Shown piece after piece: positions 10,068 through 44,297 of a stretch of DNA of 64,000 nucleotides. The DNA comes from Magnetococcales bacterium (GTDB taxonomy: Bacteria; Pseudomonadota; Magnetococcia; Magnetococcales; UBA8363), in assembly GCA_015228815.1 (NCBI GenBank), contig JADGCV010000002.1, positions 1-64,000 of the forward strand, written 5' to 3'. The stretch's first letter is position 1, and each line of letters begins with the position of its first letter. A program made the translations under genes and the position numbers. Under the pieces are notes generated by a model. It worked only from the letters and a program-made list of their open reading frames with translations. It did not search any database and was not told the DNA's origin.

Positions 10068-10183
10068 GGGTCAAGGTATCCGAAAAAATTGATTGGCAAA
10101 AAGAATTGATTGACGTCTGCCTGGATAAGCGCGATTCATCCCCGCAGTTACGATTTTCCATCACGATTTTTTCGTTTGACGAT

Positions 10184-11167: not shown

Positions 11168-11320
11168 TGTTACCCTCCTGTCCCGCCGGTCCCCATCGAT
11201 CGACGGGCGACCGGCCCATGCCGGACCAACCCGTCCATTGCTTCGTTCCATACGTCCGATCGATCGGGACCGGAGGAAAAACCATCCGGCCCGATCGATC
11301 ATAATTCACTGCCGGGCCGC

Positions 11321-13462
<2,142 letters not shown>

Positions 13463-13699
13463 AACCTTTCGTCTTTTTGGGTCTTTCCTGGAGGAACCAG
13501 ATGTTGGGACTTGGGACACGATCAACCGCCGCGACTTCACGGCGGGGGCCACGCATACTCGTTTGGGTGGGTCGAATGTAATGCAAGTTGCCGTGTCCGT
13601 CATCTCTTTTTTTCAACTTCCCGTTGAAAAACTTGCACTTCATCGGAAAATAGTCCATAAAATAAAATTGTCCTCCTTAACCTGAATTTATCTAAATAC

Positions 13700-14840: not shown

Positions 14841-14881
14841 TCGAAGAAATGGGTTTCAGGAAAGAATCGCCATGACCTTGG
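14841..14881 (+). repeat. Left copy of 41-bp direct repeat
   Basis: Identical to 18559-18599. The right copy spans the end of the UvrD-like gene (encoding LEEMGFRKESP and its stop) and the first codons of the XPB-like gene. Seven more bases to the left also match with one indel, so this copy looks like a displaced 3' end of the helicase gene. It brackets the AT-rich OLD-UvrD pair. Confidence 0.9.
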
Positions 14882-14973
14882 GTGCTGCCGGACCACCCGA
14901 TCGTGATTTGTATCTGGCGCTGGGGATGGATTACTCCTATTTATATAGTAACATATTTATCTATAAAGGGACC

Positions 14974-16713: not shown

Positions 16714-18593
16714 ATATCAACGACAATCAAAGGCGTGCGATTGAATGGAACCATGGGGCACTATTGGTATTGGCTGGCCCTGGTTCAGGTAAAACGAGAG
16801 TCTTGGTTGATCGAGCGGCGCGTCTTCTCAAGGAATTTCCCGACTCAAGCGTTCTGGCGCTCACTTTCACGACGAAAGCTGCCGACGAAATGCGCGAGCG
16901 ACTGAATGAATCGATTGGAGGACGTTCTGACCGTGCCCATCTCTGCACCTTCCACTCATTTGCCGGGGATATTTTACGTCAGCATGGAAGCCATGTAGGA
17001 ATACAGCCTGATTTTTCGATTCTCACTCTTGATGAAGACCGTTTTTCTTTGATTGAATATGCGATGGCCACGCTGGAGTGCGATACTTCATCCATTCCAC
17101 GCGACTGGAAGAATCTATTAGTAATTCTTGACTATTTGTTCAGGGAATCGTATGACGGGGAATCCAGGGTATCCAGAATGGTTCCCGCCCCATCGTGGAT
17201 ACCTGAATTGTTCAGGAGGTACTGTGAATTATTGAAAAAAAACAACCGCCTATGTTATGGAGGACTATTGTATTTTGCGCGGAAATTGCTTGCGGAAAAC
17301 GCTGGAGTGGCGCGTTTGACGCGGTTGACTTGGCAATTCGTCTGTGTTGATGAATTTCAAGATACCAACCGTGCGCAATATGATTTGCTCAAGTTGCTTG
17401 TTGATGGTCCCCAGCCAAATCTGTTTATCGTGGCTGATGATGATCAAATCATTTATCAGTGGAATGGCGCAAGTCCAGAAAGATTGCTGGGGTTGCAGGT
17501 CGATTTCAGCATGGAATTAGTCCAACTTCCAAAGAACTACCGCTGCCCACCTGTGATTATTACCATGGCCAATCATCTGATTGGTCATAATCGGAGAAGA
17601 TCACCAGGAAAACAACCCCTTGAAGCAAATAAGGGTGTTGATCATTCGCAGGTCCTCAAATTACTGTCATTTCAATATGAAGATGACGAGGTTATGTCAA
17701 TTCCAACCGCAATTAAACAATCCGGATGGAATCCTGAAGATTGTGTCGTTCTTGCGCGTTCGACAAAGCTGCTTGCGCGTGCGGCGGAGGCCTTGAGAAA
17801 CTGTGGACTTACCCCCTATAGGTCACAACGGAAAAACGAGTTTGAGTGTGCCTCGGTGCGTTGGCTACACGCAGTGCTCAGGCTTGCCAACGCCAGACAT
17901 GATCGGGAATTTTTGCGACGGGTTTGTGTGACATGGTTGGATTTTACCGAAATATCGATCGAAGTGAATGATGTCGAAGTCGCGGCGGCGCTGAACGGGG
18001 GTGACTTTCTGCGTGCATGGGTCGCTGTCGCTTCCATGAAGATTGAACCAATGACAATGGCATCGGTTGATCAAAATGCGATTCGGTCGTTGCTGGGTCG
18101 AGTGGATCATGATCTTGTGGACCGTCTGACCTTCATGGATTTGCTTGAGTTTTTTTGGGCCGAAAAGTGGTTGGACAACCCACTGGAGAAAGAAGAAATC
18201 GATACCTGGAAGGAATTGCATGGCGCATTGATGCAAGCGTATTCACTGGAAAACGTGACGCTTCATCTTTACTTGCAGGAAATGGATTTAAAACAAAAGG
18301 CGGTCGCGCGAGTTCCCGGCTCGATCCCGTGCCTTACGGTGCATGGGGCCAAAGGCATGGAGTTCAAACATGTATTCCTTATCGGGATGGCTGAAGAGGT
18401 CTTTCCTTCCTATCAGGCGGTCAAGAAGGGGCCGGACAGTCGGGAAATGGAAGAGGAACGTCGCAGCTGCTTTGTCGCGATCACACGAACCGAAGAGACG
18501 CTCCATATGAGTTGGTCTCATTCCTACAACGGTTACCAGAAACAGCGCTCGCGCTTTCTCGAAGAAATGGGTTTCAGGAAAGAATCGCCATGA
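16710..18593 (+). CDS. UvrD/PcrA-like SF1 helicase (Gabija GajB-like)
   Basis: A 627-residue superfamily 1A helicase. Motifs seen in order are Q-motif NDNQRRAIE, Walker A AGPGSGKT (22-29), LTFTTKAADEM (Ia), VDEFQDTNRAQ (II), ADDDQIIYQWNGA (III), LPKNYRCP (IV), LTVHGAKGMEF (V) and CFVAITRTEETL (VI). The ATG at 16710 overlaps the OLD-gene stop as ATGA, so the two are translationally coupled; a start five codons earlier is less likely. In Gabija, GajB is the helicase/ATPase partner that relieves or triggers GajA. It is longer than the best-known GajB. Its own stop overlaps the next gene start. Confidence 0.8.
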   Translation: MNINDNQRRAIEWNHGALLVLAGPGSGKTRVLVDRAARLLKEFPDSSVLALTFTTKAADEMRERLNESIGGRSDRAHLCTFHSFAGDILRQHGSHVGIQPDFSILTLDEDRFSLIEYAMATLECDTSSIPRDWKNLLVILDYLFRESYDGESRVSRMVPAPSWIPELFRRYCELLKKNNRLCYGGLLYFARKLLAENAGVARLTRLTWQFVCVDEFQDTNRAQYDLLKLLVDGPQPNLFIVADDDQIIYQWNGASPERLLGLQVDFSMELVQLPKNYRCPPVIITMANHLIGHNRRRSPGKQPLEANKGVDHSQVLKLLSFQYEDDEVMSIPTAIKQSGWNPEDCVVLARSTKLLARAAEALRNCGLTPYRSQRKNEFECASVRWLHAVLRLANARHDREFLRRVCVTWLDFTEISIEVNDVEVAAALNGGDFLRAWVAVASMKIEPMTMASVDQNAIRSLLGRVDHDLVDRLTFMDLLEFFWAEKWLDNPLEKEEIDTWKELHGALMQAYSLENVTLHLYLQEMDLKQKAVARVPGSIPCLTVHGAKGMEFKHVFLIGMAEEVFPSYQAVKKGPDSREMEEERRSCFVAITRTEETLHMSWSHSYNGYQKQRSRFLEEMGFRKESP

Positions 18594-18599
18594 CCTTGG
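18559..18599 (+). repeat. Right copy of 41-bp direct repeat
   Basis: Identical to 14841-14881. It contains the last 11 codons and stop of the UvrD-like gene, a plausible ribosome binding site (CAGGAAAG) and the first three codons of the XPB-like gene. Confidence 0.9.
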
Positions 18600-20038
18600 A
18601 GTCTTCTGATTCCGCGCCTTCCACGACCCGGGAGACCGTGCCTTCCGCCGGGGTGCGTATCGAGTTCGATCAGGGGACCTTGACCCTTCAGGGATGTCCC
18701 GAGGATCTGGCCCCGGTCGCCCGGCATGTCCATTGGGACGAACGTACCGGTTGCTTCCGTGCCGAGGCGCTGGACTATGGGGCCATCGTTTTGGAGCTGC
18801 ACCGTCTAAAGATTCCCTTTACCGATCACGCCCGTCAATTTTCGACCCACCCCGGTCTCGCCGGCAATGATCCTCCACCGCGTCCCCATCAGAGGGAAGC
18901 CATCGAAGCCTGGATCGCGGCGCAACGAAGGGGCGTCGTCGTTCTTCCCACGGGTGCGGGCAAGACACTGGTCGCCCATTTGGCCATCGCTCATGTGCGA
19001 CGCAACGCCCTGATCATCGTGCCGACCATCGACCTCATGATCCAGTGGCACGATCGTCTCCAACAAAGTTTCGGGATCACCATCGGCATGTTGGGCGGGG
19101 GGAGTCACCAGGTCGAAACGATCACCGTCAGTACCTATGATTCGGCGGTGATCTACATGGAACGGATCGGCAATCGGTTTGGATTGATCGTGTTCGACGA
19201 ATGTCACCATCTTCCCGCCCCGAGCAACCGCCTCATGGCGACGATGGCCATCGCCCCTTTTCGCCTCGGACTGACCGCCACCCCTGAGCGGGCTGACGGC
19301 ACCGAGGGGGATCTGGAACGCCTGGTCGGCCCCATCTGTCACCGTTCGGAGATCGGCGATCTGGAAGGTCGGTACCTGGCCCCCTACGAACTGAAAACCA
19401 TTGCCATCGATCTGGACGAGGATGAACGGACCGCCTACAATGCCGCCTATGCCCAATACAAGGAGTTCGCCCGCGCCAGTGGCATCAGTTTTCGCGATCC
19501 CCAGGGGTGGAGCCAGTTCATCAAGGTCTGTGCCCGTTCCCAGGAAGGGCGCCAGGCCTATGCCGCCTATCGCATGCAGAAACGGATTGCCCGCGCCAGC
19601 CGCGCCAAACTCAGGGCGGTGTGGCGCCTGCTCATCCAGCACCGGCGGGAACGGGTCTTGTTGTTCACCGATGACAATGCCACCGCCTACGCCATCGCCG
19701 AAACCTTTTTCCTGCCGGTGATCACCCACCATACCCGCGCCCAGGAACGGGTACGGCTGTTGCAAGGTTTTCGCGATGGCAGCCTGCCCTATCTGGTGAA
19801 TTCGCGCATTCTCAACGAAGGGGTCGATGTCCCCGATGTCGCGGTCGGGATCATCGTCTCGGGGAGCGGTTCGGTGCGCGAACATGTGCAGCGCCTGGGC
19901 CGGATCCTCAGACCTCGTCAGGGAAAACAGGCCGTTCTCTATGAGTTGGTCTCCGGCGACACCGCCGAAACCTTCACCTCGGAGCGCCGGCGCCAACATG
20001 CTGCTTATCAAAAAAATACGGAAAATTCCGAAGAATAA
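18590..20038 (+). CDS. XPB/Rad25-like SF2 helicase
   Basis: A 482-residue DNA helicase. A small N-terminal domain (about 1-90) precedes the motor: PRPHQREAIEAW, Walker A LPTGAGKT, DECHH in place of DEAH, LTATPERADG, and motif VI QRLGRILRPRQGK. The ERADG stretch sits where XPB has its RED motif. XPB opens DNA in transcription and nucleotide excision repair. Its start overlaps the UvrD-like stop (ATGA), and a DUF790/Bax1 gene follows, the known partner of archaeal XPB. GC-rich (19201-19260 has 38 G/C of 60), in contrast to the two genes upstream. Confidence 0.8.
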   Translation: MTLESSDSAPSTTRETVPSAGVRIEFDQGTLTLQGCPEDLAPVARHVHWDERTGCFRAEALDYGAIVLELHRLKIPFTDHARQFSTHPGLAGNDPPPRPHQREAIEAWIAAQRRGVVVLPTGAGKTLVAHLAIAHVRRNALIIVPTIDLMIQWHDRLQQSFGITIGMLGGGSHQVETITVSTYDSAVIYMERIGNRFGLIVFDECHHLPAPSNRLMATMAIAPFRLGLTATPERADGTEGDLERLVGPICHRSEIGDLEGRYLAPYELKTIAIDLDEDERTAYNAAYAQYKEFARASGISFRDPQGWSQFIKVCARSQEGRQAYAAYRMQKRIARASRAKLRAVWRLLIQHRRERVLLFTDDNATAYAIAETFFLPVITHHTRAQERVRLLQGFRDGSLPYLVNSRILNEGVDVPDVAVGIIVSGSGSVREHVQRLGRILRPRQGKQAVLYELVSGDTAETFTSERRRQHAAYQKNTENSEE

Positions 20039-20059
20039 GCGCCAAGACAAGGGAATTCC

Positions 20060-21295
20060 ATGCTGACGAAGGAACTGCTCCGGTTCAACCGTCTTCGTGA
20101 TGGACGCATCACCCCCCGCTTCATCGATGTCCAGAACCGGTCCTATCTGAATCTGGCCGAAGAAATGATCGGTATCTATGCCCGGGGCGAGGGATCCAGT
20201 CACGAAGAGATCGCCGAAATGGTTCAACCCATCATCGATGCGAGCCGTTCTTCCCTCATCGGCAAGGGTTTGAACAAACTTCTCCTCGACCGCTGCCTCT
20301 TCAAGGAACCCGATGGACAGGCGGAGGACCTGCGAATGTCGGTGTTTCTGGAAGCAGTCCGGCATTTGGCCTCGCCCACGGTGGGTCATCTGGAGGCGTT
20401 TCGCGAGGGGGTGGCCGGGGCGTTGGGACATACCGCCGATTCCCTGACCCAGACCCTGTTTTCCGATCTTCCCAATCGCCAGACCCTGTCCCATTTCCCT
20501 TCGTTGAAAGGGGAAGCATTGCTCAACCGCTACAACATGGCCCTGGTTCAAGGGCTGTTACTGGCGGCGACCCGAATGGAAGTGACCATCCAGGAAAACG
20601 ATGTCGGTCGGTTTCGCCGTTTTTTCCGGCAAATCAGATTTTTTCGCCTCCTGGCCTCCATCCGGCAAAGAGGGCCGGGGGAATATCATCTGATTCTGGA
20701 TGGCCCCTTGAGTCTTTTTGATCAGGTCCGTCGCTATGGTTTTCAGTTTGCGTCGCTGCTTCCCGCCGTCTGTCATCTGCGCCAATGGACCCTGACCGCC
20801 GACGTTCGACCCAAGGGGGGGGAAGAGGGCACCTTGACCCTCGACGAGGGGAGTGGCCTGGTGGCCCAGGATGCCCATACAACGGCCTACATTCCGCCAG
20901 AGTTCGAGCGATTCGCCCTTAAATTTGCCGAGGAAAACAAGGATTGGACCCTCCTTCCCGATCCCCACCTTCTTCACTTGAAGGGATCCGACCTGATCGC
21001 CGTCGATTTTACCTTTCGTCATGGCGATGGCCAGATGGTTCATCTGGAGATGTTTCATCGGTGGCACAAGGGACCATTGTTGCGGCGCTTGCAACAATTC
21101 GACACCCCGGGTCCGGTCGCCGACCTTGCCAATCTGGCCATTGCCGTCGATCGTGGACTCGCCAAGGATCCGACCCTGGCGGACGCTCTTGAAAAATCAC
21201 ACTATTTTCAGGAACATGGTTTTCTTTTCAATGAATTTCCCCTGGTCAGACGGGCCGTCGCCTGCCTGGAAGGGTTCCGGACGAGGGAGAAATGA
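20060..21295 (+). CDS. DUF790/Bax1-family nuclease
   Basis: A 411-residue protein with the DUF790 start MLTKELLRFNRLRDGRITPR and a C-terminal PD-(D/E)XK-like stretch: DLIAVDFTFRHGDG, then MVHLEMFHRWHKGPLLRRL. DUF790 proteins are Bax1 homologues. In archaea Bax1 binds XPB and cuts DNA 3' of bubbles, standing in for the XPG nuclease. The gene lies 21 bp after the XPB-like gene and so almost certainly works with it. Substrate preference in this bacterium is unknown, and the nuclease residues are inferred by alignment from memory. Confidence 0.75.
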   Translation: MLTKELLRFNRLRDGRITPRFIDVQNRSYLNLAEEMIGIYARGEGSSHEEIAEMVQPIIDASRSSLIGKGLNKLLLDRCLFKEPDGQAEDLRMSVFLEAVRHLASPTVGHLEAFREGVAGALGHTADSLTQTLFSDLPNRQTLSHFPSLKGEALLNRYNMALVQGLLLAATRMEVTIQENDVGRFRRFFRQIRFFRLLASIRQRGPGEYHLILDGPLSLFDQVRRYGFQFASLLPAVCHLRQWTLTADVRPKGGEEGTLTLDEGSGLVAQDAHTTAYIPPEFERFALKFAEENKDWTLLPDPHLLHLKGSDLIAVDFTFRHGDGQMVHLEMFHRWHKGPLLRRLQQFDTPGPVADLANLAIAVDRGLAKDPTLADALEKSHYFQEHGFLFNEFPLVRRAVACLEGFRTREK

Positions 21296-31885: not shown

Positions 31886-31978
31886 ACGGGGGATCGGACT
31901 GAATGCGTTTCAGTGAAGCCATCGTTATCGATTAACCGAGAGGGCGTGGAACCCGAATCGGTACGGAAAGGATCGAAA

Positions 31979-32605
31979 TTGACTCTTCGTCATGTCGTCA
32001 TGGGTATTCTTGGCTGTATGTTTCTGGTTATGGGATGGCTTGGGTCTCCGGGGATGGCGTTGGGCCTGGAAATTCGTGACCTTCCGGAAAAAGTGGAGTT
32101 GGCGGGGTTTGGCGACACGGGAACGATGGCCGATCTTTTGCGAAAAACGCCCGTTCTGATTGTCGTCGGTTCGCATTCGACCTTTCCCTTGTTGAAGGAG
32201 CTTCCTTTTCGATGGGTCGCCCGGGGGTGGAAGATCGATCCGGAACAGTTTGTGGCGGTGGCCGCGGTCGGCAATGCCCCGTGGTTGGTGAAAAAACTCC
32301 TGGTCACCTCCAGTTTGAGACAGATCAAGGAGGAACGGGATGCCCGGGGCCGGGGGATCATTCCCAATCTGGAACGATCCCAGGTGATCGTCGATCGCGA
32401 GGGAACGTTGGCCGGGGCGTTGGGGATTGCCGCTCCAGGGAACCCCCTGGGGAAGAATGGCTATGCCGCGTACATCGTCGCCCCGGACGGAACCATCTCC
32501 CTGCTGTTGCAATCCTCCCTGCCCGAAAAAGAGGAATCCGAGATCGAACTCATTCACGCCGCCGATGCCATTCTTGACAAGGCCGCATTATCGATTAAAC
32601 CATGA
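31979..32605 (+). CDS. Exported thioredoxin-fold-like protein
   Basis: From a TTG at 31979 with GGAAAGGA upstream, the 208-residue protein begins with a signal peptide (TLRHVVMGILGCMFLVMGWL, then GSPGMALG). The open frame reaches a GTG at 31913, but that start lacks a site and would bury the signal. The mature part has VLIVVGSHSTFP, WLVKKLLVTSS and VIVDREGTLAGALGI, recalling thioredoxin-like YtfJ-type exported proteins, but there is no CxxC. Its stop overlaps the reductase start, so it belongs to that operon. Function unknown. Confidence 0.5.
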   Translation: MTLRHVVMGILGCMFLVMGWLGSPGMALGLEIRDLPEKVELAGFGDTGTMADLLRKTPVLIVVGSHSTFPLLKELPFRWVARGWKIDPEQFVAVAAVGNAPWLVKKLLVTSSLRQIKEERDARGRGIIPNLERSQVIVDREGTLAGALGIAAPGNPLGKNGYAAYIVAPDGTISLLLQSSLPEKEESEIELIHAADAILDKAALSIKP

Positions 32606-34287
32606 GCAACGATTCGATACCGTCCATGGACACCCATTCCCGGCGGGTTTTTCTGACCGGGGGGACGGGGTATGTCGGAAAACATGTGTTGGCCCGGTTG
32701 CTGGTCCAGGGGTGGCATGTGTTTGCACTGGTTCGCGCGGCCAACGGGGACAATGGCCAAAGAATCTTTCGTGCCTTGAAACCATTTTCGGAATGCACCG
32801 ATCGGGAGATGGCGCGTCTGCATATCCTGATCGGAGATGTCACGCAAACCGATTGCGGCCTGACCGGGGAGACCATCGACCGGCTTCGTGGATTGCGTCT
32901 CGACGCCTTCGTTCATTGCGCCGGCCTGACCCGTTTCGAGGAACAGCGGGCACTGGATGTGTACCGGGTCAATACCCTGGGGACACGCGCGGCATTTTCG
33001 TTATGTCGCGGACTCGATGTTTCCCTGTTCATTCATGCCAGCACCGCGTTTGTCGCGGGAGATACCACAAGCCCTTTTTATCATTTTGACTTTGATCGCG
33101 GGCAAGGCTTTCGCAATCCTTACGAACGATCCAAATTCGAGGCGGAACGGTATCTGTTTTCCGAAGCATCTGGAAGTCCCATCCGTGTGCGCATCCATCG
33201 TCTGGCGATCGTGGTTGGCGGATTTCCCCTGGGGGAAGAAGGGGATGTCGGTACTCTGTACGCTTTCCTGAAGGCACTGGAGTTCCTTCATGCCTGTTGC
33301 CGGTTGGATCTGGAACAGGGACGGGGACGCATGGAACGGTTGGGGGTGCGGCGGATGGACGATACGTTGTTCATCCCGGTGCGCGTGGCGGCGGTGGCGG
33401 AGGTCTGTATCAATCTGGTGGCCATCGACCATGTGGTTGCCGTCGTGGAACGGGAATTGATGCGTCCCGGGACCGATTCCATCCTGGTGCGCCATGTCGT
33501 CGCCGCCGAGGGAATCGCCTTGAAGACCCTTCGTGACACTTTTTGCCGCATCATGGGGATGACCGGGATTACCTTTTGTGACCCCGATGATTTTCGCGAG
33601 CGTCCCCGTACTTCCCTGGAGGGTCGTTTTCATCGGGCCACCCGTGCCTATGATCCGTATCTTCAGGAAACGGTCCATTTCAGACTCGCCCCCGAAGAGG
33701 CGGCGTGGATGCCGCCGGAACCCGTCGATCCCGCCGTGATCGCCCGTCAATTCCTGAGCCAAAGAACGAAACGTCGCGAATGCGTTCATCAGCGTAACGA
33801 TTGTTGCGGAACCGACCGGGAATTCGATCAGGGGACCGATCGATGCACGGTGCCGATTCCGATGAATCTGGGTCGCCTTGCCCTGGATGCCCTGGGGATC
33901 GACGATCCGGAACGCTATTTCGAAGGTTTGGTCCGTGGCGATTTTGGTACCGATTTTTTGCATAAAAACCGCTTTGTCACTGCCTCCATTCGTTTTGTGG
34001 TCACCGGTCCTGTCCCGTTTGACCGGACACTTTGTTTTTCACGAGGGGTGGCCCGCTTTCCATCGTCCGGCGAACGGATGATCCCTGAGTGTACCTTCAC
34101 GCTGGCATTGCCGACCTTTCGAGCCATCGTCCGGTGCGAACTTGATCCCAGGCAGGCCTTCTTTCGTGGTCGGATTCATATTGCCGGCAATCGTGAGACA
34201 GGGTTGAAATTTGCCCATCTCCTGAGCCAATACTACGCACGCATCAACGATCATGTGCTCGACGAGGTTGCGGGTCTGGCCTCATGA
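32602..34287 (+). CDS. Thioester-reductase-like SDR with extra C-terminal domain
   Basis: A 561-residue protein. Residues about 13-330 form an extended short-chain dehydrogenase of the NAD-binding_4/thioester reductase type: FLTGGTGYVGKHVL (nucleotide binding), VHCAGLTRF, HASTAFVAG and catalytic Y174/K178 in NPYERSKFEAE. Enzymes of this type reduce acyl-thioesters to aldehydes or alcohols. Residues about 420-561 form a second domain that may be SCP2-like lipid binding (GRIHIAGNRETGLKFAHLL), a tentative call. It overlaps the transporter gene by 4 bp. The surrounding ligase and aminotransferase suggest an acyl or carboxyl substrate; the substrate itself is unknown. Confidence 0.65.
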   Translation: MSNDSIPSMDTHSRRVFLTGGTGYVGKHVLARLLVQGWHVFALVRAANGDNGQRIFRALKPFSECTDREMARLHILIGDVTQTDCGLTGETIDRLRGLRLDAFVHCAGLTRFEEQRALDVYRVNTLGTRAAFSLCRGLDVSLFIHASTAFVAGDTTSPFYHFDFDRGQGFRNPYERSKFEAERYLFSEASGSPIRVRIHRLAIVVGGFPLGEEGDVGTLYAFLKALEFLHACCRLDLEQGRGRMERLGVRRMDDTLFIPVRVAAVAEVCINLVAIDHVVAVVERELMRPGTDSILVRHVVAAEGIALKTLRDTFCRIMGMTGITFCDPDDFRERPRTSLEGRFHRATRAYDPYLQETVHFRLAPEEAAWMPPEPVDPAVIARQFLSQRTKRRECVHQRNDCCGTDREFDQGTDRCTVPIPMNLGRLALDALGIDDPERYFEGLVRGDFGTDFLHKNRFVTASIRFVVTGPVPFDRTLCFSRGVARFPSSGERMIPECTFTLALPTFRAIVRCELDPRQAFFRGRIHIAGNRETGLKFAHLLSQYYARINDHVLDEVAGLAS

Positions 34288-36437
34288 TTCGGAAACTGGC
34301 TCAATTCATCGAACGTCGCTTTTTATGGATCACCGTTCTGACCCTGGTGGCGCTTTTGCCCTTTTTCGGGCCTTTGTCCCAACTCAAGGTGGAACATTCC
34401 TTCGATGCCTGGATCGATCATGAAGGGGATCTGTATCGAACCTATCAGGAATTCACCCGGACTTTTGGTGGCGATGATACGGTGCTCCTGGTTTTTGGCG
34501 TGCATGATCTCCTTGCCAGTCGGCCTGATTCGGTCGATGAGGATTACCCCCGGTCGCCGCTGGAAGACTATCTTGAGGTGATCCCCCGGCTGGCGCGGAT
34601 GGACGGGGTTGTCGGCGTGATCGATCCCATCGGGGAATGGTTCGGGTCGTCGGGACCTGGGGCTTTGGTCGGGCTTGAATTTTTCGACCCCGATCGGCGG
34701 GAGGAATACCGGAAGCGGATGGAACAGCTGTTCCCTGGAAGTATCGGTTTTTTGTTGTCCAGGGATCTGGAAACGGCGGGATTGCTGCTTTTTCTCGATC
34801 CCGCGCGCCGGGAGGATCATCCACGAATCCTCGATGCCATCGAACTGGAGTGGCAACGGGTGGGAATCCCGGTCGATTGGGCAGGGGTTTCCTGGTTTTC
34901 CAAGACCCTGAGCGCCGCCATCACCCGTGACATGATGGTGGTGGTGACACTGTTGGTCTTTGCGGCGCTGGCGGTCGTCCACTATTATTTTGCAAGTCTT
35001 TCCCTGATCGTGATCACCCTGATCGCCATGGGACTTGCCATCGGCTTTACCCTTGGGACGGCCCAGTGGTTCGGGATCCGGATGACCCTGTTTGGGCTTA
35101 TTCTTTTTCCGCTCGTGTTCTGTGTTGTCCTGACCTCCGTCATTCATCTGTTGTCCCTGCGCGGTCGCGATGGGGTTTATCGTTTTGCCGATGCCTTCTC
35201 TTATGTATTCAAGCCGGCGACATCCGCCGCCGTGACCACGGCGGTGGGGGCAATGGCCTTCCTGTTTTCTCCCCAGGAGGCGTTGCGGCATATTGGATGG
35301 ATTCTCCCTTTGGGGATCATGGTTTCGTTCATTATATCCATGATGTTCATCCCAAGTGCCATGCGCCTGGTATCGGGAACATGGGAACGTGTCGGAGCCG
35401 GAAGAGGTTCCGGAGGCGTATGGTTCGGGATGGTTGGCGATCGGTCCATGGCACGGTCGGTGATCGGTGGGACGCTTCTGGTGTTGGCTCTGGGGGCGGC
35501 GCTTCTTTTGCCGCGTCTTGTGATCGATGCCAATGCCTTGAATTTTTTCGAACCGACCTCGGACCTCATGCGTTCCTACCGCGCCATCGAGGATCGTCTG
35601 GGCGGACTTCTCCGGGTGGAACTGTTGATCGATTGTGGCGGAAAGGGCACGGTGACCGAACCCGTTCGGATCGCGGCCATCGAGGCGTTTCTCGCCGAGG
35701 TGCGTCGCTGGCCCCAGCTGTCCGGCAGTGCCGGCGGGGGCGATGTGTTGAGGGAACGTGATCCGGCCATTCGCCATCGCTGGATCAAGCCCGATGAATC
35801 GCTCATGCGCGTGACCCTCGGGTTCAGTCAGAGGGAAGACTACAAGCGGATCGAAGCGGATCTTCATCGTTTGTGGCAACACAAGATTCCCACCGGGACC
35901 TCCTTGTCCCTTCGCCTGACGGGGCAGTTGCCGCTGATCCTGGCGGCCCAGGATCGTTTGCTCGAAAGTCAGTTCGATACTTTTGCCCTGGTATTTCTTT
36001 TGATTTCCTTGTTTCTCGGGCTGGGGCATCGATCCTGGCGTATTTTCGTCCTGGCGCTGGTTGCCAATTTTGTTCCGCTCGTGATCACTGGTGGTCTCAT
36101 GGTGGTGCTGGGGGTTGCGATCAACAGCATGAATTTTTTCGTGGCCAGCGTCATGCTCGGGGTGATTGTCGATGATACCATGCACCTGCTGCATGCCCTC
36201 GATGTGGAACATGGGTTTGACGCGGGGCTGGTTCGTGTCGGGAAGGCGTTGTGGATCACCACCGCGACGGTGTTCATCGCCTTTCTGACCTTGACCGTTT
36301 CGCGGATTGTCCCCATCGCCCAGTTTGGCTGGCTTTCGGCACTGACGGTTCTGGTGGCGTGGTTGTGCGATCTGTACCTGCTGCCATTTCTTCTGGCCCG
36401 TTTCGCGAGGAGAATCCATGGTCGTCGATCGGGATGA
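34284..36437 (+). CDS. MMPL/RND-family transporter
   Basis: A 717-residue protein with the MMPL/HpnN layout: one N-terminal membrane helix (about 12-32), a soluble loop of about 180 residues, five to six helices (about 205-365), a second large loop, and a final helix block (about 555-705). LVFGV and GDDTVLLVFG near the start and VMLGVIVDDTMHLLHAL in the last block are typical; the Asp pair there is part of the proton relay. Relatives export lipids, hopanoids or siderophores in the RND superfamily. It overlaps both neighbours in an operon of lipid-like enzymes, so it probably exports their product. Confidence 0.8.
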   Translation: MIRKLAQFIERRFLWITVLTLVALLPFFGPLSQLKVEHSFDAWIDHEGDLYRTYQEFTRTFGGDDTVLLVFGVHDLLASRPDSVDEDYPRSPLEDYLEVIPRLARMDGVVGVIDPIGEWFGSSGPGALVGLEFFDPDRREEYRKRMEQLFPGSIGFLLSRDLETAGLLLFLDPARREDHPRILDAIELEWQRVGIPVDWAGVSWFSKTLSAAITRDMMVVVTLLVFAALAVVHYYFASLSLIVITLIAMGLAIGFTLGTAQWFGIRMTLFGLILFPLVFCVVLTSVIHLLSLRGRDGVYRFADAFSYVFKPATSAAVTTAVGAMAFLFSPQEALRHIGWILPLGIMVSFIISMMFIPSAMRLVSGTWERVGAGRGSGGVWFGMVGDRSMARSVIGGTLLVLALGAALLLPRLVIDANALNFFEPTSDLMRSYRAIEDRLGGLLRVELLIDCGGKGTVTEPVRIAAIEAFLAEVRRWPQLSGSAGGGDVLRERDPAIRHRWIKPDESLMRVTLGFSQREDYKRIEADLHRLWQHKIPTGTSLSLRLTGQLPLILAAQDRLLESQFDTFALVFLLISLFLGLGHRSWRIFVLALVANFVPLVITGGLMVVLGVAINSMNFFVASVMLGVIVDDTMHLLHALDVEHGFDAGLVRVGKALWITTATVFIAFLTLTVSRIVPIAQFGWLSALTVLVAWLCDLYLLPFLLARFARRIHGRRSG

Positions 36438-37488
36438 ATGGTTGCGTCGCATTCTGGCCCTTCATTTTGACCCGGAGGGGGGCGCCCCCTATTGGCTGGA
36501 ACGGCAGCGGCAGCTTGGGTTTTCGGTGCGCGACCGGATCGGTTGCATCGACGATCTGGCGCTGATGGGTCCCATGGAACTAGACGTGTTGCGGCACAGG
36601 CCAATCGAGGACTTGATTCCCCGTTCCCAGCTTGGCCGCTTTTCCCTGATCACCGCGCAAACGGGCGGTGCGACCGGAATGCCGAAAACCACCGCTTTTT
36701 CACAGGACGATTTCGAGGCCTCTTTTGTCGTTCCATTTCTGGAGACGGCCCGGGCGCTTGGGTGTTCCTGGCCATCCGCGGGCCATTGGCTGTGGATCGG
36801 GCCGGGGGGACCGCACATCATCGGCAAGGCGGCCCACAGGATTGCCGAACAAACCACCGGTAGCGATCCTTTCAGCGTCGATTTCGATCCGCGCTGGTTT
36901 CGCCGCCTGGCCGAACACTCTCTGGCGCGGAAACGTTATCTGGAACATGTTCTGGAACAGGCGCGTAACATCATCCGGGTGCAGAAGATTGCCTGTCTGT
37001 TTACCACGCCCGCCATCCTGACGCCGCTGGCCGATCTTCTCTCGACCGACCAATGCGGCGCGGTCACTTTCATCTATCTGGGCGGCATGCGGGTGACCCG
37101 GCAGGTTTTTCATGAATACCGCAGCCGCTTTGTCAATGCCACCGTCCTTTCGGGGTATGGCAATTCCCTGTTCGGGGTTTGTCATCAGCGGGGTGAAGTG
37201 GAGGAGGGGCTTTGTTATTATCCATCCTCTCCCCAGATCGTTTCCCGGGTGGTGGCGTGGATCACGGGCGTTCCAGGCCCGATCCACTTTTCCCAGGAGG
37301 TCGCCTATGGCAGCCGTGGTCAGGTCGTCATGCACCGCTTGCAGGAGAGCGCCTTGTTGATCAATGTCGTGGAACAGGATGACGCCATCCGTGTTCCGCC
37401 CCTGCCAGACGGTCCTCCCTGGGATGGATTGGGAGACCCCGGGCGACTCGAACAACGCCATCTGATCGTTGACGATGGCATCTATTGA
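36418..37488 (+). CDS. LuxE/PaaK-like adenylate-forming enzyme
   Basis: A 356-residue protein of the ANL superfamily. The P-loop TGGATGMPKTT at 82-92 is the acyl-adenylation motif, and WLWIGPGGPHIIGKA and YLGGMRVTRQVFHEY are similar to LuxE acyl-protein synthetases and phenylacetate-CoA ligases. It is shorter than full acyl-CoA synthetases, closer to LuxE. Such enzymes activate a carboxylic acid as acyl-AMP and pass it to a thiol. It overlaps the transporter by 20 bp and lies 10 bp before the aminotransferase. A natural fit is activation of a fatty or other acid for the reductase; the acid is unknown. Confidence 0.65.
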   Translation: MVVDRDEWLRRILALHFDPEGGAPYWLERQRQLGFSVRDRIGCIDDLALMGPMELDVLRHRPIEDLIPRSQLGRFSLITAQTGGATGMPKTTAFSQDDFEASFVVPFLETARALGCSWPSAGHWLWIGPGGPHIIGKAAHRIAEQTTGSDPFSVDFDPRWFRRLAEHSLARKRYLEHVLEQARNIIRVQKIACLFTTPAILTPLADLLSTDQCGAVTFIYLGGMRVTRQVFHEYRSRFVNATVLSGYGNSLFGVCHQRGEVEEGLCYYPSSPQIVSRVVAWITGVPGPIHFSQEVAYGSRGQVVMHRLQESALLINVVEQDDAIRVPPLPDGPPWDGLGDPGRLEQRHLIVDDGIY

Positions 37489-37498
37489 TGGTTGACAC

Positions 37499-38797
37499 AT
37501 GTCCCAGAGTCTTGATCATACCCTTCTGACGCAACGGATGTTGGAAAAGAAATCCCGTTTTCTCATCCCTTGTGTCTATCATTTCTACAAAAACCCCATG
37601 GTGTTGACTCGGGGGGAAGGGGGGTGGCTCTTCGACGATGGCGGTCGGCGTTATCTGGACGGTTATTCGGGGGTCGGGGTCGTCAACTGCGGCCACTGCG
37701 AACCCGGAATCGTGGCCGCGGCCACCCGTCAGATGGCAACCCTGCAACACACCACCACCATCTATCTGACCGAACCGATGCTCCTTCTTGCCGAAGCGCT
37801 GGCTCGATTTGTCCCTGGGGGGCGGTTGTGTCGTGGTTTTTTCTGCACGAGCGGCAGTGAGGCCAACGAGGGCGCCCTGTTGTTGGCCAAACTGGCGACG
37901 GGAAGGAAGGGGTTCATGGCTCTGAGTCGTGCCCTTCATGGACGAACCTGGCTGACGACGGGGGTGACGGGGCTTTCTTTCTGGAGAACCGATCCCGATC
38001 CGCCACAAAATGTTCATTTTGTTCCAAGCCCTGTCTGTCGTGCGTGTCCCATGTCGCTGTCGTATCCGGAATGTTCCCTGGAGTGCGCCGAGGTCATCGA
38101 GGAGCATCTCCGGCAACATCCCGATGAGGTCGCGGCCTTCATCGTCGAACCGATCCACGGCAATGGCGGGATCATCGTGCCGCCGGAGGGCTATTGGGCA
38201 CGGGTCCGGGAGATTCTCGACCGCCACGGCGTGCTGTTGATCATGGACGAGGCGCAGACGGGGTTTTGCCGGACGGGAAAACGGTTTGCGTTCGAACATT
38301 CGCGAGTGGTCCCCGATATTTTGACCGTGTGCAAAGCGTTGGGCAACGGGTTGCCGATCGCGGCCTTCATGACGACCGATGCCATTGCCGCCACCTATAC
38401 CCGACCGGGGGCTTCGACTTTTGGCGGCAATCTGGTGGCGTGTGCCGCGGCCCTGGCGACGTTGAACTTCATGGAACGCAACCATCTTGAAGAAAAGGCG
38501 GCCCGGACCGGTGAACGGTTGCGGTCCATTCTGCTCCGATTGCAGCAGCGTGTCCCCCTGATCGCCGAGGTGCGCGGCAGGGGCATGATGCTGGGGGTGG
38601 AACTGGCCGATTGTGATGGAACTCCTGCCGCGGCGACCTTGGATAATATTTTGGAATCCCTGAAAGATCATGGGGTTCTGGCAGGAAAAACGGGTCCTGG
38701 CCGCAATGTGTTGACGCTGATGCCGCCCCTGATCCTCGATGCGTCGCAGATTGACCATCTTGAGGCGGCCCTGGAGCGTGTTTTTTTGGAATCATGA
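37499..38797 (+). CDS. Class III (AGXT2/ornithine-type) aminotransferase
   Basis: A 432-residue PLP enzyme. GGRRYLDGYSGVGVVN, GSEANEGALLLA, VEPIHGNGGIIVPP, LIMDEAQTGFCRTG (Asp250) and CKALGNGLPIAAF with the PLP Lys279 identify it. Cysteines 180, 183, 192 and 196 form a CxxC...CxxxC cluster found in a subset of these enzymes. Class III enzymes transfer an amino group to an aldehyde or keto acid and accept omega-amino donors, so a terminal aldehyde from the upstream reductase is a reasonable partner. The real donor and acceptor cannot be seen from sequence. Confidence 0.8.
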   Translation: MSQSLDHTLLTQRMLEKKSRFLIPCVYHFYKNPMVLTRGEGGWLFDDGGRRYLDGYSGVGVVNCGHCEPGIVAAATRQMATLQHTTTIYLTEPMLLLAEALARFVPGGRLCRGFFCTSGSEANEGALLLAKLATGRKGFMALSRALHGRTWLTTGVTGLSFWRTDPDPPQNVHFVPSPVCRACPMSLSYPECSLECAEVIEEHLRQHPDEVAAFIVEPIHGNGGIIVPPEGYWARVREILDRHGVLLIMDEAQTGFCRTGKRFAFEHSRVVPDILTVCKALGNGLPIAAFMTTDAIAATYTRPGASTFGGNLVACAAALATLNFMERNHLEEKAARTGERLRSILLRLQQRVPLIAEVRGRGMMLGVELADCDGTPAAATLDNILESLKDHGVLAGKTGPGRNVLTLMPPLILDASQIDHLEAALERVFLES

Positions 38798-38836
38798 ATT
38801 CGTCGCGCGATTTTCGAAGGGCTTCGTGAATTGAAA

Positions 38837-40873
38837 ATGGCAATGTCCGAGAAAATGGAACTCCTTGCCCCGGCAGGGAATTGGCAAGCCCTGGAGGGGG
38901 TGATCGAGGCGGGGGCCGATGCGGTTTATGTCGCCGAGAAACGCTTTGCCATGCGACAACATGGGGCCTGGCTCAACTTTTCGGCGGACGATCTGACGCG
39001 GGTTGTGGCTTATGCCCATGAACACGGGGTTCGGTGTTACCTGGCGCTGAACAACCTGCTGACCGATGCCGAAATCACCTTGCTGACCGAAAGAATTCCC
39101 GATCTGATCGCCATGAACCCCGATGCCCTGATCGTTCAGGACCTCGGGGTCATTCGCCTGTTGCACGAAATGGCGCCGGGTCTTTCCCTTCATGCCAGTA
39201 CCATGATGTCGGTACACCATCCTTTTGCGGCGCAACTCCTGAAAGAATTGGCCGTCACCCGGATCATCGCCTCCAGGGACATCACCCTTCATGAGGCGGC
39301 CCGCATTGGGCGCGAGAGCGGCCTGGAAGTCGAATATTTTGTCCATGGCGACATGTGTGTCGCCCAGGGATCGCAGTGTTATCACAGCGGGATCGCCGCC
39401 GGTATGAGCGCCAACCGGGGTAAATGCTTGAAATCATGCCGCTGGGCGTGGAGTCTGATCGATCGACGCGATGGCCGGGTCCTGGGGGAGGTGGCGGATC
39501 GCCACCTCCTGGCGCGTAATGATTTATGCCTGTACCATCAAATTCCCGAACTGGCCGTATCGGGAATCCATTGTTTGAAAATAGAAGGACGCGCCCGTCC
39601 CGCCGAATACCTGATCCCGATCGTCGCGAGCTACCGTCAGGCCATCGACCGTTATTATGAGGACCCAGTGGCCTACCGGACCGATTTTGCCCAATTGAAC
39701 CGCCTCAAACACCATACCTTGCGCGAGGTCAACACCGGGCATGCCTTTCATCGGCCCGGACCCGGTTCCTCGGGGATCACGGGCAAACGGGAGCCAAGGT
39801 TTTTTTCGCTTGTCGTCCAGGAACGGCCCTGGGAAGGGGCTGATGAAGAAGAAATTCCTGGCGGGAGCCTGTCCGGGTTGCCATCAGGGACGCGGCCCGA
39901 ACTCGTGGTCCGCTGCGGGTCGCCCGAGGGGGCGGAGGCACTGCTCGATGCCCCCTGTGACTGGATCACCATCGGCGGGGAACAGTTTGTCGCCGGAGGA
40001 CGGAAACGGTGGGGCGGAACATGGATGCGCGAGTGGATGACCGCCGCACGAGGGAAAGGCAAAAAAGTCGGCATCCATGCCCCCCGGATCACCACCGAAC
40101 GGGAATTCGCGGAACTGGAGCGGTTGGTGGCGGACCTCGGGGATCACCCGCCGGATGAATACCGGATCGCCAACCTGGGGACCCTGGCTTTTTTTCACGA
40201 CCGTTCCCCGGCGCCGCTCCATGCCGATTATGGTGTCAATGTCTGGAATACCGGGGCGGTGGCGCTGTTGCGGCGGTTGCGGGTCTCTTCGTGGACCCCT
40301 GGTTTGGAATTGCCGCTGGCGGGCATTCTGGATCTTGCCAAACGGACGACCCTGCCGCTGGAGGTGATCGTTCATGGGGCCTTGCCGGGGATGTTGCTCG
40401 AATATTGTCCCATCGGTGTTCATTTGACCGCGACCTCCCGGAGCGATCCCTGTTCCGGACCGTGTGTCGGCGGGGCCTATGCCTTGCGTGACCGGGCGGG
40501 TGGCGTTTACTGGCTCGAAGCGGATCAATACTGCCGCAACCATCTGTTCATGGCCCGAGATCTGTGTGCCCTGGATCGGATCGGATCATTGGTCGCGGCA
40601 GGGGTTGCGCGCATCCGCATCGAAGGGGCATTGTACACGCCGGAGATCTTGTCGTCCCTGGTCACCTGCTACCGCCAGGCGCTGGACCGGGTCGCGGCGG
40701 GATTGCCTCTGGGCCCCTGGTCCCGCGAACGGATGGCGCGACTGGACCTTCCCCGCCCCTTGACCCGGGGTGTCTTCGGGCACACGATCGAGGCGGTATC
40801 ACAACCACTGGCGGAACTCCCGACCAACCTGGTCATCCTTCATGATGTCACCCTGGAAAGGAAACCGGCATGA
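38837..40873 (+). CDS. Peptidase U32-family protein (RlhA/TrhP-like)
   Basis: About 678 residues. The N-terminal half has MELLAPAGNWQALEGVIEAG and the four-cysteine stretch CVAQGSQCYHS...GKCLKSCRW that marks U32 proteins, which bind an iron-sulphur cluster. The C-terminal half has further Cys (CPIG, CSGPC, YCRNHLF). Known members hydroxylate rRNA or tRNA bases (RlhA, TrhP) or ubiquinone precursors (UbiU/V) rather than cleave peptides. ATG 38837 or 38843 are both possible starts. It overlaps the DUF547 gene. Its place after the aminotransferase could be chance or could mark a hydroxylase. Confidence 0.75.
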   Translation: MAMSEKMELLAPAGNWQALEGVIEAGADAVYVAEKRFAMRQHGAWLNFSADDLTRVVAYAHEHGVRCYLALNNLLTDAEITLLTERIPDLIAMNPDALIVQDLGVIRLLHEMAPGLSLHASTMMSVHHPFAAQLLKELAVTRIIASRDITLHEAARIGRESGLEVEYFVHGDMCVAQGSQCYHSGIAAGMSANRGKCLKSCRWAWSLIDRRDGRVLGEVADRHLLARNDLCLYHQIPELAVSGIHCLKIEGRARPAEYLIPIVASYRQAIDRYYEDPVAYRTDFAQLNRLKHHTLREVNTGHAFHRPGPGSSGITGKREPRFFSLVVQERPWEGADEEEIPGGSLSGLPSGTRPELVVRCGSPEGAEALLDAPCDWITIGGEQFVAGGRKRWGGTWMREWMTAARGKGKKVGIHAPRITTEREFAELERLVADLGDHPPDEYRIANLGTLAFFHDRSPAPLHADYGVNVWNTGAVALLRRLRVSSWTPGLELPLAGILDLAKRTTLPLEVIVHGALPGMLLEYCPIGVHLTATSRSDPCSGPCVGGAYALRDRAGGVYWLEADQYCRNHLFMARDLCALDRIGSLVAAGVARIRIEGALYTPEILSSLVTCYRQALDRVAAGLPLGPWSRERMARLDLPRPLTRGVFGHTIEAVSQPLAELPTNLVILHDVTLERKPA

Positions 40874-41637
40874 ATGCGACTCCCCATTGGCGTTTACCGT
40901 TCGCCGTGGCATTTCTGATGGCACTGTCTTTTTTCGGATGGGACCGTGCCGATGCCGTGGAACCCGACTGGGAAGGGTACAAGGTGGTTCTCGAACGTCA
41001 TGTCCATCCGGGCAGCGTCAACGCGACCCGGCTCAACCGGGTCAAGTATACCGACCTGAAGAACGATCCCGATTTTGCCGCCACGATCCGGTCCATCGCC
41101 GCTTTCGACGTCGCCACCTTGTCGGGATCCAGGGAGAAACTGGCCTTTTACATCAATGTCTACAATATTCTGGCACTGAAGATGGTGGCGGATCATTGGC
41201 CGGTGAAAAGCATCAAGGATGTCGGATCGCTGTTTGGCCCGGTTTGGAAGAAGGATGCCGGAACCGTGGGTGGCAGAACGGTCACCCTGGATCAGGTGGA
41301 GCATGAGATTCTTCGTCCCATGGGCGATCCTCGGGTCCACATGGCCATCGTCTGTGCCTCCGTCAGTTGTCCCGACCTGCGTCGGGAACCCTATGTCGCG
41401 GCCAATCTGGACCGTCAGTTGGATGATCAGGCCCGCCAGTTTCTCATGAACGAGGCCAAGGGACTCGTCATCGAGGGTGGCGTTGTCAAACTTTCCCGTA
41501 TTTTTTCATGGTTCGAGGATGATTTTGGCAACTCGGGTGGTGTCATGGGGTTTGTCCGCCGCTATCGCGACGATCTTCCCAAGGATGCAAAAACAGAGGC
41601 GGATCTTCCTTACGACTGGTCGGTCAATGGTGAATGA
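40870..41637 (+). CDS. DUF547-containing exported protein
   Basis: A 255-residue protein with a signal peptide (hydrophobic stretch at about 8-26) and a DUF547 domain: KLAFYINVYNILALKMV, VGGRTVTLDQVEHEIL, HMAIVCASVSCPDLR and FSWFEDDF. The Cys/His arrangement resembles a papain- or transglutaminase-like fold, but activity has not been established for the family. It shares a 4-bp overlap with the U32 gene and ends the operon. Confidence 0.75.
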   Translation: MNATPHWRLPFAVAFLMALSFFGWDRADAVEPDWEGYKVVLERHVHPGSVNATRLNRVKYTDLKNDPDFAATIRSIAAFDVATLSGSREKLAFYINVYNILALKMVADHWPVKSIKDVGSLFGPVWKKDAGTVGGRTVTLDQVEHEILRPMGDPRVHMAIVCASVSCPDLRREPYVAANLDRQLDDQARQFLMNEAKGLVIEGGVVKLSRIFSWFEDDFGNSGGVMGFVRRYRDDLPKDAKTEADLPYDWSVNGE

Positions 41638-43459: not shown

Positions 43460-43788
43460 GAGCGTTGCGGGTGGAGGATTTTTGCCAGGGTGAGCCGCCG
43501 CGATGTTCGATGCGTCGGATCGGAATGTTCGGAAACGTACCTCTGAATCTTGATGGTTTCATGGATTGTCGCGGTATTCAAGAATAAAGACGTTCCGTTG
43601 CGTGCCGATTGTGTATGAAACCTGCTGAAGGGATCTGCCATGATGCATACTGTCGCTGCCAAAGGTGAACGCATGCACCTTCCCGGCAACACACCCAATG
43701 CCCTGTCCGGGGCAAAAAGCAGTCATGCGCAGGGAGAATGTGCTTCAACATCACCATCTTTCCGTATCATCAGGGCATGATGGAGAAC
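43460..43788. other. Intergenic region, 329 bp
   Basis: It lies between the divergent HDOD and toxin-antitoxin genes. It should hold both promoters. A 46-codon frame from 43640 is visible but has no supporting family, and no strong hairpin or repeat was found. Confidence 0.4.
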
Positions 43789-44007
43789 ATGATGGACGCC
43801 ACCGCAACCGCCATAGAGGCACAAGCCCGAAAATTGAGTCCATCGGCGCGTCTGGAATTGGTGGACGCCATTCTGAGCAGCCTGGACGAACCGGATCGGG
43901 AAATGGATCGGCTGTGGTCCCAGGAGGCCGAGGAGCGTCTGGCGGCCTACCGGCGGGGGGAGATGAAGGCGATCCCCCTGGATGACGTCCTGGCCAAATA
44001 TCGATGA
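43789..44007 (+). CDS. Addiction-module antitoxin (TIGR02574-like)
   Basis: A 72-residue helical protein (MMDATATAIEAQARKLSPSA, then RLELVDAILSSLDE). The pattern of the putative addiction module component family is seen in LSPSARLELVDAILSSL followed by a charged WSQEAEERLAAYRRGE and DDVLAKYR tail. It pairs with the ParE/RelE-type toxin whose start overlaps its stop. GGAGA lies six bases upstream of the chosen ATG; a start four codons earlier is possible. Confidence 0.8.
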   Translation: MMDATATAIEAQARKLSPSARLELVDAILSSLDEPDREMDRLWSQEAEERLAAYRRGEMKAIPLDDVLAKYR

Positions 44008-44297
44008 TCCGCTTCCTTGAAGCCGCCCAGAGGGAACTCGACGAAGCGGTGGCGTTCCACGAAGGGCAGGTCATCGGTCTTGGCCGGGCGTTCCTGGCCG
44101 AAGTGTTGGTGGCTCTGGAACTGGTGCAGCGCTACCCGGAGGCGTGGCACCCCTTCGGCACCAACGCCCGGCGTTGTCGTTTGCGGCGTTTTCCCTACGG
44201 GCTGATCTACCATGCGGACGGATCGGACATTCTGATCGTCGCCGTGGCGCATTTGCATCGCCGCCCCGAATACTGGCGCGACCGTTTGAAAGGGTGA
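44004..44297 (+). CDS. RelE/ParE-family toxin
   Basis: A 97-residue toxin. IRFLEAAQRELDEAVAFHEG, LGRAFLAEVLVALE, RYPEAWHPFGTNARRCRL and FPYGLIYHADGSDILIVAVAHLHRRPEYWRDR are the ParE/RelE core, with the Arg and terminal His/Trp residues typical of ParE-like members. ParE poisons gyrase and RelE cuts mRNA; sequence alone does not decide between them. It overlaps the antitoxin by 4 bp. Confidence 0.85.
   Translation: MIRFLEAAQRELDEAVAFHEGQVIGLGRAFLAEVLVALELVQRYPEAWHPFGTNARRCRLRRFPYGLIYHADGSDILIVAVAHLHRRPEYWRDRLKG

Follow-up and report, generated by a model that had tools for sequence, protein, structure and literature searches.

The biosynthesis of the phenazine D-alanylgriseoluteic acid in Pantoea/Enterobacter agglomerans, a pathway to a redox-active compound, starts from a chorismate-derived aromatic carboxylic acid and involves the adenylating enzyme EhpF. 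The futalosine pathway, with the enzymes MqnA, B, C, D and E, belongs to menaquinone synthesis and makes its precursor 1,4-dihydroxy-6-naphthoate. A survey reported that Pseudomonadota are without this pathway; the one exception was a Magnetococcia MAG in which "only five genes" of it were present (PMC11707229). The available text on the gon cluster for PM100117/PM100118 in Streptomyces caniferus describes futalosine genes inside a specialised-metabolite cluster, with 1,4-dihydroxy-6-naphthoate as the branch point (PMC4763440). Hydroxylation of ubiquinone without O2 involves UbiT, UbiU and UbiV, and activation of an acid followed by aldehyde formation is the common feature of LuxCDE/PaaK-type activation and the carrier-dependent carboxylic acid reductases. 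Here, an operon of a Magnetococcales bacterium that resembles each of these systems in part is compared with them.

The operon consists of seven genes at positions 31913-41637 of the window, the whole stretch of 64,000 nucleotides that was analysed. In order, they are:

31913..32605, + strand: secreted thioredoxin-fold protein of 230 aa without CxxC (weak AF2/Foldseek match, peroxiredoxin/TlpA fold)
32602..34287, + strand: thioester-reductase-like extended SDR with a C-terminal SCP2 domain, 561 aa (NAD_binding_4; GGTGYVG and YERSK motifs)
34284..36437, + strand: MMPL/RND-type inner-membrane transporter, 717 aa (Pfam/NCBIfam MMPL)
36418..37488, + strand: EhpF-type adenylating enzyme, 356 aa (phmmer, PDB 3hgu/3l2k)
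37499..38797, + strand: class III PLP enzyme of the aminotransferase family, 432 aa (Aminotran_3 match)
38831..40873, + strand: tandem U32 protein (Pfam; cysteine alignment)
40870..41637, + strand: secreted DUF547 protein, the final gene of the operon (Pfam)

A sequence-only reading had described four coupled genes, and these open reading frames (32602-34287, 34284-36437, 36418-37488 and 37499-38797) were confirmed, all on the + strand, with overlaps of 4 and 20 bases and a gap of 10 bases between them. The operon is larger than this set, as the genes for the tandem U32 and DUF547 proteins extend it beyond 31979-38797; the thioredoxin-fold gene could also begin with the TTG at 31979. The 230-aa product of that gene had no match in Pfam, nor among PDB sequences when these were searched by profile; its orthologues adjoin the block in DCbin4 and in Gammaproteobacteria. 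The AF2 model of a 528-aa lipoprotein (pLDDT 48) was too poor for use.

The activating enzyme had been taken for a LuxE/PaaK-like protein, an assignment that was not borne out: Pfam and NCBIfam gave no LuxE or PaaK family match and only a weak AMP-binding one (PF00501, 21 bits against a cut-off of 29.9) plus distant ANL models, while residues 4-340 matched EhpF over its whole length (E 5e-27; PDB 3hgu/3l2k), the two proteins being similar in length. The TGGATGxPK-type region is kept across 12 sequences, and some plasmid homologues of the ligase are annotated as "arylcarboxylate reductase" or "phenazine biosynthesis protein". Since the closest relative belongs to a phenazine pathway, an aromatic acid substrate is indicated, and the EhpF-type protein is a putative aromatic-carboxylate adenylating enzyme. 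Unlike the EhpF system, the operon contains no phenazine genes, and the partners of the enzyme are the tandem U32 protein, the class III PLP enzyme, the SCP2-reductase and the MMPL protein. A weaker group of EhpF relatives, present in 18 genomes of the Verrucomicrobiota group and about 88 of Planctomycetota, was set aside, as the partner genes were absent at all nine of the Verrucomicrobiota-group loci read and at the one Pseudomonadota locus (L126); the neighbours there are ALDH and Fe-ADH genes.

The extra domain noticed earlier on the reductase is real: residues 459-541 form an SCP2 domain of the lipid/hydrophobe-binding type (Pfam/NCBIfam), which is encoded by a separate gene in L010, L011, L078 and the anammox loci. 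Carrier proteins or domains were not found among the operon proteins with Pfam/NCBIfam, in agreement with the sequence-only reading. Activation and reduction are assigned to separate genes and no carrier domain was found, so that the system differs from the carrier-dependent carboxylic acid reductases as well as from LuxCDE/PaaK-type activation. The transporter matched the MMPL family itself, but its proposed HpnN type was rejected, as the curated hopanoid transporter models TIGR03480 and NF052374 gave 52.2 and 33.1 bits versus cut-offs of 751.85 and 1100. The class III PLP enzyme retains the catalytic Lys279 and Arg149. When homologues were aligned, the equivalents of this lysine and of GabT Arg141 were invariant, and the equivalent of Arg398 was replaced by Thr, Ala or Ser; because this arginine usually binds 2-oxoglutarate, the reaction of the enzyme is uncertain.

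The CX6CX15CX3C motif was defined for U32 oxidases (PMC11574389), and the N-terminal half of the tandem U32 protein carries it at residues 176-203 (C176, C183, C199 and C203), as do oxidases of the UbiU/UbiV/RlhA/TrhP type. The C-terminal half has C526, C541, C545 and C568, and both sets of cysteines are invariant in 19 of 19 sequences. An RlhA identity was rejected: in E. coli RlhA the U32 domain is followed by DUF3656 (PF12392), whereas a second U32 stretch takes its place here. The protein shares about 30% identity with UbiU over the N-terminal half and only weak similarity with UbiV. In its two sets of four cysteines it resembles a fused UbiU-UbiV, and O2-independent hydroxylation is its putative activity. 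As in UbiT-UbiU-UbiV, an SCP2 domain is combined with two U32 domains that each have a four-cysteine site; in contrast to that system, the U32 domains are joined in one chain and SCP2 is fused to the reductase.

The same gene order was found again in Gammaproteobacteria, and the core of the block also occurs in genomes of the Verrucomicrobiota/Lentisphaerota group and of Planctomycetota, anammox bacteria included. The recurrence of this order in other phyla rules out a chance association, and the conservation of the genes as neighbours favours the earlier claim that they function together. Some loci are incomplete: the reductase is missing from the G555 operon, and the U32 gene from L006 and several Planctomycetota loci. 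In the EhpF tree, the only one built, from few genomes, the Magnetococcales sequences nest among those of Gammaproteobacteria, which suggests transfer. No published description of the operon was found in the literature searched, as the earlier reading had also supposed. The pathway is apparently undescribed so far and common to some Gammaproteobacteria, bacteria of the Verrucomicrobiota/Lentisphaerota group, anammox bacteria and a Magnetococcales bacterium.

The block co-occurs with futalosine genes. Homologues of all five (MqnA, B, C, D and E) are present in the genome of the window, on a different contig from the operon (contig 22; L017, G000:C22), where PF02621, the family of MqnA and MqnD, was found twice together with MqnE- and MqnC-type radical SAM proteins and a PNP_UDP_1 nucleosidase. 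Among 61 genomes (48 of them Magnetococcales), PF02621 occurs in G000 and G002 only, the same two that carry the EhpF gene. Mqn genes were present in each of the five Gammaproteobacteria that carry the block, and MqnA-E-like genes lie beside or inside it in Gammaproteobacteria and in two Verrucomicrobiota-group genomes. The arrangements include an MqnD-B-E-A-C operon divergent from the block (G064 and relatives), a single operon EhpF-U32-AT3-MqnA-...-MqnE-MqnC(-MqnD) (G555, G374) and MqnD within the block (G1342, G1071); at L077, L078, L122 and L124, Mqn-type genes share the operon or block. The sequences are divergent, and several Mqn models scored under their equivalog cut-offs (below cut-off in Pseudomonadota). 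G066, G067 and G070 have EhpF-U32-AT3, G070 also the reductase-SCP2, yet no MqnA, D, E or C; therefore, the pathway must also be able to start from a different aromatic acid or from a precursor that is imported.

Based on these observations, it is moderately probable that the operon encodes one half of a biosynthetic pathway, the tailoring and export steps, which lead from 1,4-dihydroxy-6-naphthoate to a redox-active naphthohydroquinone or naphthoquinone other than menaquinone. In the order of steps that we infer, MqnA, E, B, C and D would build the 1,4-dihydroxy-6-naphthoate scaffold from chorismate. Adenylation of its 6-carboxylate would fall to the EhpF-type enzyme; the SCP2-fused reductase would convert the activated acid to an aldehyde, whose amination to an aminomethyl group would be the task of the class III PLP enzyme. 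For the tandem U32 protein we propose a UbiU/UbiV-like role, O2-independent hydroxylation of the ring, and for SCP2 that of binding the hydrophobic intermediate, a function that UbiT may have as well. The product would leave the inner membrane through the MMPL protein, either for export or for use as a redox carrier. The orphan five-gene set of the Magnetococcia MAG is what would be expected if the five genes feed a non-menaquinone product. The gon cluster offers a parallel in its branch point; its context is that of a macrolide PKS, and the available text on it reports no U32, EhpF-type enzyme or SCP2.

An EhpF-U32-AT3-reductase core acting on some other aromatic carboxylic acid, with the Mqn genes supplying only co-regulated menaquinone, would account for the three core-bearing genomes without Mqn genes, in one of which an NMT1-type ABC importer adjoins the core (L011). 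We consider it fairly unlikely, as Mqn-type genes are found within the same operon or block at the four loci named above and co-occurrence is perfect in Magnetococcales, which are otherwise without futalosine genes. The Mqn linkage would also suit a block that replaces or extends the late prenylation, decarboxylation or methylation steps and yields ordinary or slightly modified menaquinone. The resemblance of SCP2 and U32 to UbiT and UbiU/V of quinone synthesis agrees with this, as does the presence of MK-7 in anammox bacteria (PMC12954380). However, menaquinone synthesis involves no adenylation, reduction or transamination of this kind, and none of the tailoring genes belongs to it. Neither a prenyltransferase, a UbiD-type decarboxylase nor a methyltransferase was recognised among the conserved genes, and no additional UbiA-type gene (PF01040) accompanies the block. 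We consider this route improbable. An argument for menaquinone redundancy from MenB-like matches in Magnetococcales was dropped, since MenD is absent.

The earlier proposal was that a fatty acid is activated, reduced to an aldehyde and aminated, and the resulting fatty amine or amine lipid exported. Its sequence of activation, reduction, amination and export stands, in that one conserved operon holds all four functions, and SCP2 domains bind lipids in known families; its fatty or lipid substrate does not. The ligase is EhpF-like with no match at the level of LuxE, PaaK or FadD, futalosine genes are linked to the block in three phyla, the U32 protein is left without a role, and the conserved part of the block showed no recognisable acyl carrier protein or fatty acid gene. 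We regard this proposal as very unlikely.

If the preferred reading, a pathway from 1,4-dihydroxy-6-naphthoate to a non-menaquinone product, is true, an unknown redox-active compound branches off menaquinone synthesis in several phyla, many sampled anammox genomes included. In anammox genomes, genes for a cytochrome b and for 5-, 10- and 5-haem cytochromes lie downstream of the block, and the product may serve the cytochrome b/multihaem complex whose genes belong to this cluster. A possible link to ladderanes was looked for in one paper, in which the families of the block are not mentioned. It is a tentative possibility that dedicated cytochrome b/multihaem complexes are served by an undescribed redox cofactor or lipid quinone built on naphthalene, which would be formed from 1,4-dihydroxy-6-naphthoate by amination and anaerobic hydroxylation; it would be common to anammox bacteria and would have reached Sedimenticola-type Gammaproteobacteria and Magnetococcales through gene transfer. 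Quinone/cytochrome b energetics in anammox bacteria are unsettled (PMC12954380), a question to which a quinone-like carrier dedicated to this system would be directly relevant. The pathway would also explain the orphan futalosine set of the Magnetococcia MAG (PMC11707229) and would mean that U32 oxidases of a new architecture act on a small molecule. With candidate genes and a candidate substrate named, the hypothesis is directly testable.

The block lies on contig 2 of a 4.2 Mb genome, and the sequence-only reading had taken four of its genes, encoding an acid-activating enzyme, a reductase, an aminotransferase and an exporter, for a possible fatty-amine or lipid operon. The four proteins were recovered at the positions claimed, all on a single strand, with overlaps of 4 and 20 bases and one spacing of 10 bases. 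The four genes are coupled, but the operon extends beyond them at both ends:

31913-32605, same strand, secreted 230-aa protein, first gene of the operon
38831-40873, same strand, 680-aa U32 protein, second-last gene
40870-41637, same strand, secreted DUF547 protein, last gene

Family-model searches identified the reductase as an extended SDR (NAD_binding_4, thioester-reductase type) carrying a C-terminal SCP2 domain. The exporter is of the MMPL type, but its assignment to HpnN was dropped, as its score lies far under the HpnN cut-offs. Elsewhere in the window, two other gene pairs were recognized:

14872-18593, Gabija defence pair, overlapping genes (PADLOC, GajA E 3.5e-177; GajB E 3.9e-215)
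43738-44297, type II toxin-antitoxin pair, Unstab_antitox (PF09720) and ParE_toxin (PF05016)

Directly after Gabija (18512-21295), an XPB-type helicase (ResIII, XPB_DRD and ERCC3 C-terminal domain) stands beside a DUF790 protein, possibly as an XPB-Bax1-like pair or a Gabija accessory. A 1173-aa protein at 10106-13627 had no match in Pfam or PADLOC.

The activating enzyme, previously labeled LuxE/PaaK-like, matched neither LuxE nor PaaK. Its sole strong solved relatives are two EhpF sequences, with an alignment spanning residues 4-340. The gene for EhpF is part of the set responsible for converting phenazine-1,6-dicarboxylate into D-alanylgriseoluteic acid (PMC3175449), and some Streptomyces plasmid homologues of the EhpF-type protein are annotated as "arylcarboxylate reductase" or "phenazine biosynthesis protein". 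These relatives and annotations point to an aromatic acid, rather than a fatty acid, as the likely substrate. The class III PLP enzyme (AT3) retains its catalytic lysine and HGRT arginine, but in the aligned homologues the counterpart of GabT Arg398 is lost, so the enzyme's reaction cannot be deduced from the family. A second, distant EhpF group had partner genes in none of the 10 loci read and is a useful negative control. This distant family occurs in the Verrucomicrobiota group (L079-L087) and in about 88 Planctomycetota genomes; at the loci checked its neighbours encode an iron-containing alcohol dehydrogenase and a member of the aldehyde dehydrogenase family, an arrangement resembling an uncharacterised operon from aryl acid to alcohol.

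The U32 protein contains two U32 stretches, whereas RlhA has DUF3656 instead. Its N-terminal half shares 32, 30 and 27% identity with RlhA, UbiU and TrhP, respectively, and has a CX6CX15CX3C motif identical to that reported for U32 oxidases (PMC11574389). The C-terminal half adds four cysteines, three of which are arranged in a manner resembling UbiV, and all eight cysteines are invariant (19 of 19 homologues). The natural reading would be a fused UbiU/UbiV-like, O2-independent hydroxylase.

With the EhpF-type protein as query, one pass over genome contigs yielded 11 loci. Five Gammaproteobacteria show the order reductase-SCP2, MMPL, EhpF, AT3, U32 and DUF547, except that locus L006 lacks U32; in L003 the contig end cuts the reductase. 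EhpF-U32-AT3 was found in genomes of the Verrucomicrobiota/Lentisphaerota group; on contigs that extend far enough, genes for the reductase, SCP2 and an alpha/beta hydrolase accompany it. In the Planctomycetota sample, the close EhpF group is present in about 33 of 392 genomes, 17 of which also have the hydrazine synthase alpha domain (frames of about 810-830 aa in 16) and are read as anammox bacteria. Eleven anammox loci were read, and the nine reaching AT3 all keep the relative order reductase, SCP2, MMPL, EhpF, U32 and AT3, with other genes sometimes intervening. Eight of these nine (L110, L111, L112, L114, L115, L117, L118 and L128) continue after AT3 with genes for cytochrome b-like and/or 5-, 10- and 5-haem cytochromes (counted as CxxCH; Pfam check on L117); the exception is G1088, a genome in one contig of 4.41 Mb. 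No Rieske motif was found within the stretches read of the cytochrome-bearing loci, and these genes perhaps encode a Rieske-less quinol oxidoreductase tied to the block's pathway.

The block is also linked to futalosine-pathway (Mqn) genes. In the gammaproteobacterium G064, it shares its intergenic region with a divergent operon encoding a Trx-fold protein, a 528-aa lipoprotein, a hydrolase and MqnD-, B-, E-, A- and C-like proteins; in G061, G062 and G063, these genes are likewise present, on the block's contig or on a short separate one. A single operon holds Mqn genes together with EhpF, U32 and AT3 in two Verrucomicrobiota-group genomes (G555 and G374), where two MqnC-type proteins and one MqnE-type protein exceed curated cut-offs. 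MqnD-type genes lie inside the block in two planctomycete versions. Of the 61 genomes compared around the window, 48 of which are Magnetococcales, just the two with the EhpF-type gene have members of the MqnA/D family. The window's genome has all five Mqn genes on another contig, where a repeat-rich frame resembling an inserted repeat array, with no Pfam match, separates mqnE and mqnA (L017, 2657-3199). No additional UbiA-family gene goes with the block. The 528-aa lipoprotein family (L037, 5533-7119; homologues in L004, L009, L039, L122 and L124) is conserved and has no Pfam match whatever; in both Gammaproteobacteria and Planctomycetota it is linked to the block. A survey of Pseudomonadota reported the futalosine pathway as absent; the exceptions were a single Magnetococcia MAG that had "only five genes", for which contamination was discounted, and a very small number of other cases with scattered genes (PMC11707229). 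That MAG may or may not be the window's genome. By our own reading, not that of the survey, MqnA-E would lead no further than 1,4-dihydroxy-6-naphthoate, as a side pathway requires.

With gene content, linkage and conserved residues as observed, we infer the chemical steps and their order as follows. MqnA-E would convert chorismate to 1,4-dihydroxy-6-naphthoate, whose carboxylate would be adenylated by the EhpF-type enzyme and then reduced by the SDR-SCP2 protein; the class III PLP enzyme probably aminates, the tandem U32 protein would hydroxylate the ring, and the product would leave the inner membrane through the MMPL protein. Several observations do not fit this scheme: the core is present without any Mqn gene in G066, G067 and G070, the G555 operon lacks the reductase, and U32 is missing from some planctomycete versions as well as L006. 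These misfits suggest that the core enzymes may use other aromatic acids as substrates, or that some hosts may import the precursor; at L011, an NMT1-type ABC transporter adjoins the core.

The nearest precedents are EhpF phenazine tailoring, UbiTUV hydroxylation and the gon cluster, where a macrolide naphthoquinone is fed by futalosine genes (PMC4763440); the full gene set of the block is in none of them. No published description was found in the literature searched, which included only a minority of subscription papers and no bioRxiv preprints. The block is rated as a probable branch of quinone-type biosynthesis assembled from known enzyme families.
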